From Watersipora subatra (Eukaryota; Bryozoa; Gymnolaemata; Cheilostomatida; Watersiporidae), in contig NC_088712.1 in assembly GCF_963576615.1 (NCBI RefSeq), positions 19,429,452 through 19,493,451 of the forward strand: DNA of 64,000 nucleotides, in the 5' to 3' direction. A program made the position numbers and the translations under genes. Under the pieces are notes generated by a model. That model searched no databases and had not been told where the DNA came from. It was given only the letters and a program-made list of their open reading frames with translations. Below, piece after piece: positions 26,901 to 29,900 of this stretch. Every line of letters starts with the position of its first letter. The first letter of the stretch is position 1.

Positions 26901-29900
26901 TGTCTGTCCCTTACATGGCATAAGCTTTTTTGCATTCAACCGACAAATGGTAACCAGAACATTGGATAAATATCAAAATCATTCAAGTCTGTAGTTCACT
27001 GTCGGGGTTGTCTGCCCATAGGTTTCATGGCATAAACCTTTTTTTTTGTCCACATTGTATTGGCTTTTGCTAGTTACAATTCAATAGGCTCTAGTGTGGT
27101 GTGCATTGCTATCATGAACGACAAACCTATTGGAAATGCGGGCAAAAAATAAAACGGATTTTGTATCTCAAATGTCATTTGTGCCAAGTTCTAATATCAC
27201 TATTACTGAAACTGCTCACTACGGAACATGTACATGAATACTACTAATACATGTTAATGGGTATTTCTGAAATAACAAATAGATTTGTTTTTTAGTAATG
27301 ATAAATTTATTATCTTCCATCTTCTGGATATATACAAAGCAAGTCAGTCGTTTTCAACACTCGGTTTGATAACAGGGGATATTTCTGTCGGCGTACAATC
27401 AGTCGATCAGGCCTGGTCAAGTTGGCTGCATTATATTCTCCACGTATATGAATTTCTGGTATTAATATGTGTGATATGGCCAACTGGGTTTGGCTGTAAG
27501 TAACCTAGTATTCTGTGTGTAGTTCTGTACACCAGCGGGTAACAGCTTAGTTGGTTTCATCTAAGTGATATTGCATTCTGGACTTAATTGGGTGCCGAAA
27601 CACGATCAACTTTGGCCATATTGATCAACTTATCAACTTTGGTTACAATTTTTGGTAACGTGTACATATAGATTGGCCTAAAAATACTTTGTTTATCGGT
27701 GTTATTATAATTTGTATTGGACTTTAGGCTCCACGTTATCTCAAATTCCTGTTATGGTTGTAGGCTGCAATCTAAAGATATTTAGCAACAACACTTTTGC
27801 TGAGCTGCTGCGACAGTCTGTACATCGAGGATTTGAGGCCGTCTACCAGCTGACCAAGATGTGCACCATCAGAGTCAGCTTTGTCAAAGGCTGGGGTGCT
27901 GACTATAGGTTGGTAGTTATGGCTGACTATAGGTTGGTAGTTATGGCTGACTATGGGTTGGTGGTTATGGCTGACTATGGGTTGGTAGTTATGGCTGACT
28001 ATCGGTTGGTAGTTATGGCTGACTATCGGTTGGTAGTTATGGCTGACTATGGGTTGGTAGTTATGGCTGACTATGGGTTGGTAGTTATGGCCGACTATGG
28101 GTTGGTCGTTATGGCCGACTATGGGTTGGTCGTTATGGCCGACTATGGGTTGGTCGTTATGGCCGACTATGGGTTGGTCGTTATGGCCGACTATGGGTTG
28201 GTCGTTATGGCCGACTATGGGTTGGTCGTTATGGCCGACTATGGGTTGGTCGTTATGGCCGACTATGGGTTGGTCGTTATGGCTGACTATGGGTTGGTCG
28301 TTATGGCTGACTATGGGTTGGTAGTTGTGACCGACTATGGGTTGGTAGTTGTGACCGACTATGGGTTGGTCGTTATGGCTGACTATGGGTTGGTTGTTAT
28401 GGCTGACTATGGGTTGGTCGTTATGGCTGACTATGGGTTGGTCGTTATGGCTGACTATGGGTTGGTCGTTATGGCTGACTATGGGTTGGTAGTTGTGGCT
28501 GACTATGGGTTGGTAGTTGTGGCTGACTATGGGTTGGTAGTTGTGGCTGACTATGGGTTGGTAGTTGTGGCTGACTATGGGTTGGTAGTTGTGGCTGACT
28601 GCGGGTTGGTAGTTGTGGCTGACTGCGGGTTGGTAGTTGTGGCTGACTGCGGGTTGGTAGTTTTATCAAATTTGCTAGCGTAAATATATTGTATTCGTGA
28701 CATTTTTACTTTTCCCCGAGCTCTTTAACATACAGCGTTTGAAGAAACATGGCATCTGATCTGTCAGAAACTAAGTAAGATATTTAGTCAAATGTGCCAA
28801 AGCTTAGTATGGAAAGTTGGACGTAGGATTAGATGCACGCTAGTAAATTGTGATGCTCATTATAAGAATCAATGAGTAGATACAAAGGAACTTACAATAG
28901 CAAACATTCTAGGAGCTTATTTTGTCATGGAAGTCAAATAATATATTAACAGTTTGGTTAAAATATGTATTGCGTTATATGAGGTATTTTTGTAAAAATA
29001 TCTTTTTCTCAACATTGATTTCTAACTTAACCAATACAGAGTTCATTTAAAATCCATTATAGACAATTTATCAGCTGTTTAAACACAACTGCACTCTGAT
29101 TGTAGTCGTTATGATCAGGTTTGGTGTCCAAAAACATCTTAGTAACATTTGATGGTTCAAAGTAAGTGTTAGTTTTAATGATAATTCAGTGTAATTTTCA
29201 AATATTCACTTTGTACTGAAATATAGCCTTTAAACTATTTCATAATTTTATAGAAACAAATTTAGTAGCTACTAAATGAACGTATCATTTATTCAGGCAC
29301 TGATTGTCCAATTAAATACAGGATGACATACGCTGGTCTGGAAACGACCCAAGAGCTTGATCTGAAATTTCGTTAAGCTCGATGGTTTTTCATTAAACAT
29401 GATAGTTGATATTATCCTTTAAGCGGTCTGTAGCAAATACGTAAAGCTAACCATTCTTATTTCTTAAAGACTGCTAAAAGGATAATATCGTGAATCCTAA
29501 ACACCACTGGTAAAAACTTGTCTGGTTATATTGTCAAGTTTAAGAAAGATTGATTGTTCAACGTGGGACTGCAAGAAGCTAGCAGTCTCACGTTCAAAGG
29601 TGGTCGTTAACAATAGTATGTTTAATAAAAATTGTTCGTTTCTATTTGTATATTCTTAAAACGGTGTTCTCGTCACTTAGCATTGGTTTAAAACGGGCCA
29701 TTCATGCTTTGAATAGAAATTTATTAGGTTACTAGGTAACTCTTTCGCTACTATAAGCCGATGTATTGGCTTTCGCGGTAATAAGTACTGATCGTAAGCC
29801 GATGTATCGGCTTATCGATAGCGTTCCACTTTTCTTTTCATTACGAAGCCCACACATTAGCTAGACCGATCAAATGTCTCCAATGAAGCGATCTTGGTGC

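Follow-up and report, generated by a model that had tools for sequence, protein, structure and literature searches.

Tandem repeats that extend across exon–intron boundaries have been described in amphioxus under the name 'mirages'. They occur there in the Adh3, globin and TnC genes, with similar repeats in PGBD5; the repeated units of the Adh3 mirages measure 10–72 bp and, according to the excerpts of these reports, the mirages leave regular splicing undisturbed, even though the authors of the globin study consider that some units could serve as cryptic sites (PMC3087553, PMC3902484). A minisatellite with multiple splice donors is also known from the human gene IFI6 (6-16, G1P3), being cited by title in PMC4526556 and PMC2572611, and an excerpt of the former reports that two downstream repeat units act as donors, with three mRNA species and predominance of a 130-residue form (PMC4526556). 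In the potato RdRp gene, an intron was gained by tandem genomic duplication, as stated in an excerpt of the corresponding study (PMC4974935).

The locus described here lies in a stretch of 64,000 nucleotides from the bryozoan Watersipora subatra (contig NC_088712.1, forward strand), hereafter the window, to which all positions refer. The gene model built from the window comprises eight exons with a coding sequence of 1323 nt for 440 aa, and its seven introns all start with a GT donor and end with an AG acceptor (Table 1). Based on its MH1 and MH2 domains, the type of its L3 loop, its tail motif and a gapless match to Smad2, the locus is predicted to be a complete gene for a receptor-regulated Smad of the Smad2/3 class. 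The MH1 match on exon 2 and the MH2 matches on exons 5 and 7 exceed the Pfam cut-off, and that on exon 8 (23 bits) falls slightly below the cut-off of 25. In a phmmer comparison, the predicted protein matched 39 distinct PDB sequences at E ≤0.001, the best Smad2/3 chain having an E of 7e-106, and the four alignments shown were gapless over MH2; among them the solved Smad2 structure 1khx_A (E 1.4e-105) aligned with R-R-Q-T across the exon 7–8 junction. A preceding reading of this DNA, made from the sequence only, had recognized a Smad and had joined 27908 to 31693, and the Pfam and phmmer matches bear out the former, just as the full gene model and the gapless alignment with 1khx_A support the latter. 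The predicted L3 sequence of 12 residues, aligned to Smad2 KGWGAEYRRQTV, carries R and T at two sites that we take to be those distinguishing the Smad classes. That two L3 residues differ between classes is stated in an excerpt of an earlier report (PMC6953019). The C-terminal tail TSMS retains the S-x-S of the SSXS phospho-motif, with threonine in place of the first serine.

Table 1. Predicted exons of the Smad2/3-class gene, its intron 7 and the minisatellite array (window positions).
Feature	Position	Strand	Basis
Exon 1 (start codon, N-terminal MH1 part; donor GAG/GTTTGT)	14711..14955	+	Gene model; MH1 match from residue 37
Exon 2 (MH1; donor CAG/GTGAGC)	17204..17397	+	Pfam MH1 E 4.7e-24; gene model
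Exon 3 (linker with PPPEY; donor AAG/GTTGGT)	20942..21154	+	Gene model; no Pfam family matched by the exon 3 frame
Exon 4 (linker and MH2 start)	22481..22602	+	Gene model; Smad2 alignment
Exon 5 (MH2)	22859..23000	+	Pfam MH2 E 1e-12; gene model
Exon 6 (MH2)	26731..26868	+	Gene model; Smad2 alignment
Exon 7 (MH2, first half of L3 loop; ends GACTATAG/GTTGGT)	27764..27908	+	Pfam MH2 E 8.4e-10; gene model
24-bp minisatellite, 31.9 units, potential in-frame 5' splice site per unit	27898..28662	+	Repeat scan, unit-by-unit reading, gene model
Intron 7 with unit 1 as donor, 3784 nt; array forms its first 754 nt	27909..31692	+	Coordinates
Exon 8 (second half of L3 loop from Arg401, tail TSMS, stop)	31693..31816	+	Pfam MH2 E 1e-4; gene model; Smad2 alignment

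Downstream of the gene, possible Smad polyadenylation signals lie at 33088–33215, and a second, G-rich group of minisatellites with periods of 16–30 and up to 40 copies is situated just behind them at 33342–34095. Two further arrays were seen in the window. One (9165–9292) consists of 6.4 copies of the 20-bp palindromic unit TTCTGGAACGTTCCAGAAAC and reads as a run of TTCnnGAAnnTTCnnGAA, which is presumably a heat-shock-element pattern; the other (50005–50298) has an 18-bp unit of 89% GC, in a genome of ∼36% GC, and several frames open on both strands. An A20-type zinc finger (E 1.4e-5) at 40947–41676 is accompanied by a nearby Cys-rich frame, which by eye resembles the start of an AN1 finger and for which no Pfam family was found; together they perhaps represent a ZFAND5/6-like gene. 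The minus strand at 53525–55987 carries a frame resembling DDE_1 transposases (E 1.5e-18) and, upstream of it, a separate frame weakly resembling a Psq helix-turn-helix (E 0.065, below the cut-off); this element is probably a DNA transposon of the pogo/Jerky type. Scans of the window for RNA families and tRNAs reported none, and a Pfam search with ten ORFs elsewhere in the window gave three weak matches, all below the cut-off.

The tandem-repeat scan of the window revealed an array with a period of 24, 31.9 copies, 97% matches and a score of 1208 at the end of exon 7. Unit-by-unit reading yielded 32 rows, the last being cut by the array edge. Each unit is composed of 11 exon bases (GCTGACTATAG), which in unit 1 are the last 11 bases of exon 7, and 13 intron bases on the other side of the predicted boundary. 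The sequence-only reading had thus been right about a minisatellite of 32 units of 24 bp and about its end, but the true start lies three bases further to the left and the exon part shared by the units amounts to 11 rather than eight bases. As also claimed there, GTTGGT occupies the donor position in all 32 units, and the unit is divisible by three, with the frame of exon 7 remaining open through every one of them. The translation reads ADY(R/G)LVV(M/V), with A replaced by T in units 19–20, Y by C in units 30–32 and L as the last residue of unit 32. A weak match of this frame to DUF2345 (E 0.0016), which at 18.7 bits fell short of the cut-off of 30.7, was put down to a repeat effect. No further copy of the unit with up to six mismatches was found in the window outside 27870–28700, and all 14 matches listed from a genome search, which covered the best-scoring candidates and skipped common words, fell inside the Smad array. 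Although the array itself lies far beyond what chance would give, its finer features, such as the open frame, come cheaply (see below). It is barely conceivable that its length or presence is an artefact of assembly, as the units fall into 12 distinct types in ordered runs, and the chromosome-scale assembly (783.7 Mb in 239 contigs, with the seven sampled contigs measuring 66–79 Mb) suggests that long reads were used.

Exon 7 ends at the second base of the Arg400 codon, and in silico the use of the donor of unit n adds 8(n−1) residues in frame between Arg400 and Arg401, in keeping with the insertion length and the preserved exon 8 frame proposed earlier. Isoforms constructed for five of the 32 units (1, 2, 3, 5 and 32) comprised 440, 448, 456, 472 and 688 aa, respectively, each with a single terminal stop. 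The junction codon would specify Gly instead of Arg in 28 of the 32 units, Arg being kept only by units 1, 2, 5 and 6. The insert had been supposed to follow right after the L3 loop; according to the gene model it would instead fall inside the loop and split it. Lys393 and Arg401 presumably correspond to K418 and R426 of Smad1, with the same spacing of eight, judging from the 1khx_A alignment and the Smad1 sequence. According to excerpts of one study, the phosphorylated serine in the tail of the adjacent subunit should be held by these two L3 residues (PMC9201060), and excerpts of two other papers state that the L3 loop decides receptor class (PMC6953019, PMC1459162). Owing to the position of the insert inside this loop, longer isoforms would probably be defective rather than tuned.

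In order to compare the donors, pairing with the U1 5' end was computed for the seven donors predicted in the gene and for the 32 units. The former ranged from −5.8 to −11.1 kcal/mol. Within the array, the three bases before the GT are TAG in units 1–2 (−6.1 kcal/mol), TCG in units 5–6 (−4.9 kcal/mol), CGG in units 30–32 (−7.0 kcal/mol) and TGG in the remaining 25 units (−5.9 kcal/mol), so that 27 of the 32 units hardly differ in pairing and the last three pair best. The predicted donor of intron 3 has an intron hexamer identical to that of the array and a pairing energy of −6.2 kcal/mol, and on this account GTTGGT fits the normal donor signals of the gene, though it ranks among the weaker ones. 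Two other GT dinucleotides per unit were not favoured: the second, four bases downstream (TTG/GTAGTT and the like), is out of frame and pairs at −4.8 to −2.6 kcal/mol, and the third pairs more weakly still. The sequence-only reading was correct in that TAG precedes the first two donors and TGG most of the others, but its suggestion that TAG favours the authentic donor found little support in a difference of −6.1 versus −5.9 kcal/mol, with the last three units ahead of both. Unit 1 thus does not clearly stand out as the strongest donor by this computation, and strength alone would not select it. A consensus matrix would presumably favour unit 1 by roughly 1–2 bits. Furthermore, exon 7 would measure 145 nt with the donor of unit 1 and 889 nt with that of unit 32; exon definition favours short exons, and exon length might therefore favour unit 1. 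Against such a preference stand the better pairing of the last three units and, from an excerpt on splicing factors, the capacity of SRSF1 to favour intron-proximal donors, i.e. later units, whereas hnRNP A1 favours intron-distal ones (PMC5585400).

If all donors were skipped, read-through into intron 7 would give a protein of 657 aa with a repeat tail of ∼258 residues and without the C-terminal phospho-motif, as had been anticipated. One could imagine that the array hinders the splicing of intron 7 and by retention or early polyadenylation gives rise to such an L3-truncated Smad. The open read-through frame and seven AATAAA/ATTAAA sites in the remainder of the intron would permit this. However, pairing with U1 was computed for each of the 32 units, and bound U1 is known to suppress early polyadenylation rather than to promote it (telescripting), an effect that U1 bound at the units should exert here as well; moreover, seven such hexamers seem, at a glance, unremarkable for 3 kb of sequence that is rich in AT. 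We regard hindered splicing as extremely improbable.

The 12 unit types, the last of them being the cut unit, are arranged in the order AABCDDCCEEEEEEEEFGHIJFFFGGGGGKKL, and such runs of like units fit the turnover expected in a minisatellite. As units 1 and 2 are identical, the end of the exon itself may take part in this turnover. Variation affects seven of the 24 positions across the 31 full units. None of these lies between −1 and +6 (chance 0.056) or between +1 and +6 (chance 0.092), and one does if −2 is included; with a chance of 0.06–0.09 that all seven miss the donor core, selection on the core was rejected as not significant. Selection on the frame was likewise dismissed, given that a shuffled unit of equal composition is open in a given frame in 66% of trials and that the variable sites occupy codon positions 1, 3, 2, 3, 1, 3 and 1, with no bias towards the third; a period divisible by three is also found in eight of 20 sampled arrays (see below). 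Neither the open frame nor the invariant donor gives good evidence of selection or function.

These data bear on the possibility that the array is a functional length switch, in which regulated use of later units would produce Smad2/3 proteins whose split L3 loop lets them brake signalling of the activin/TGF-beta type in a tunable or dominant-negative manner, and in which array length would vary between individuals. The units are in frame and free of stops, the insert would sit in the very loop responsible for type I receptor recognition and for binding of the phosphorylated tail, and minisatellites often vary in length. On the other hand, base changes distributed over all codon positions, the non-significant invariance of the donor core and the lack of care for the residue at the junction codon, with Gly for Arg in the great majority of units, render such a switch quite improbable. 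A rheostat, whereby array length together with splicing factors would set a graded series of isoforms with 8(n−1) residues in L3 and thereby cause individual or tissue differences in activin/TGF-beta responses, appears very improbable.

To estimate how often such a situation arises by chance, 20 stretches of 10 kb, not confined to genes, were sampled at fixed positions from the seven contigs (C1–C7) of the 783.7 Mb genome. Twelve of the 20 stretches contained arrays with a period ≥10 and at least five copies, 20 arrays in all; 11 of these arrays had at least 10 copies, and together the 20 accounted for 7% of the bases. Three stretches harboured very long minisatellites of 59–71 copies of 33–58 bp (L013, 41–2286; L026, 889–2845; L027, 1937–6060). 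The genome is thus strikingly rich in minisatellites, and random placement would put a donor into unit 1 of an array of this sort in 0.32% of cases, i.e. 322 per 100,000 donors, a figure from a small sample which would drop with selection against exonic arrays. Boundary-spanning arrays are therefore expected by chance, and in numbers, in a genome of this kind, and the occurrence of one in the Smad gene is unsurprising.

This expectation, the absence of any sign of selection on frame and donor, and the amphioxus mirages, which in the excerpts do not disturb regular splicing and hence count against any extra isoforms, would all accord with the array being neutral intron sequence, unit 1 being the sole donor and no isoforms arising at a useful level. 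We nevertheless consider this rather unlikely, since the units are near-equal in-frame donors and human IFI6 does use downstream units, the same precedent that lends plausibility to the alternative donors supposed earlier.

What we regard as the probable explanation is a mirage-type minisatellite of which unit 1 is mainly used and the others yield minor in-frame isoforms. The 24-bp stretch over the exon 7/intron 7 boundary would have been tandemly duplicated, then expanded and homogenized to ∼32 copies by ordinary minisatellite turnover, each copy presenting a usable yet moderate 5' splice site. Splicing would mostly take place at unit 1, giving an exon 7 of normal size and a normal Smad, in line with the amphioxus globin, Adh and TnC genes, which are reported to splice normally through their arrays. 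By analogy with IFI6, units 2–3 and rarely later ones may provide minor isoforms whose L3 loop contains an insert of 8, 16 or more residues; these isoforms would probably recognize the receptor and form trimers poorly or not at all.

The Smad array is a long and clean splice-donor minisatellite in the middle of the predicted L3 loop of a protein central to signalling, and as such it offers a natural experiment on the choice of the spliceosome among 32 nearly equal donors spaced 24 bases apart, as well as on how much array a conserved gene tolerates. Among the literature matches listed for boundary repeats and for Smad splice variants there was no Smad gene with such an array, which is no proof of its absence from print.

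With the potato RdRp gene, as far as the excerpt describes it, the locus shares tandem duplication that copies splice signals, but no new intron is evident in the Smad gene, whose units carry donors. As in IFI6, the minisatellite of the Smad gene would offer several potential splice donors to one transcript. The IFI6 minisatellite was described by Turri et al. in 1995. Its unit is 12 bp long and present in about 26 copies, and the predominant 130-residue form is presumably the product of its first unit. The host in that case is an interferon-induced gene and not a conserved signalling domain, and inserts may cost less there. The amphioxus mirages, in the excerpts, resemble the Smad array in spanning the boundary and in copying the splice site; their units evolve in concert, and the runs of like units in the Smad array fit such turnover. 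They differ in extent and position: ∼32 in-frame units of 24 bp at a donor stand against six and three units at the acceptor in two haplotypes of BflGb6 and a single duplicate in BflGb9. The array is most likely a mirage-type splice-donor minisatellite, a kind already described in amphioxus and in human IFI6, and with these precedents and the heavy minisatellite load of the genome the case is unsurprising as a kind of object.
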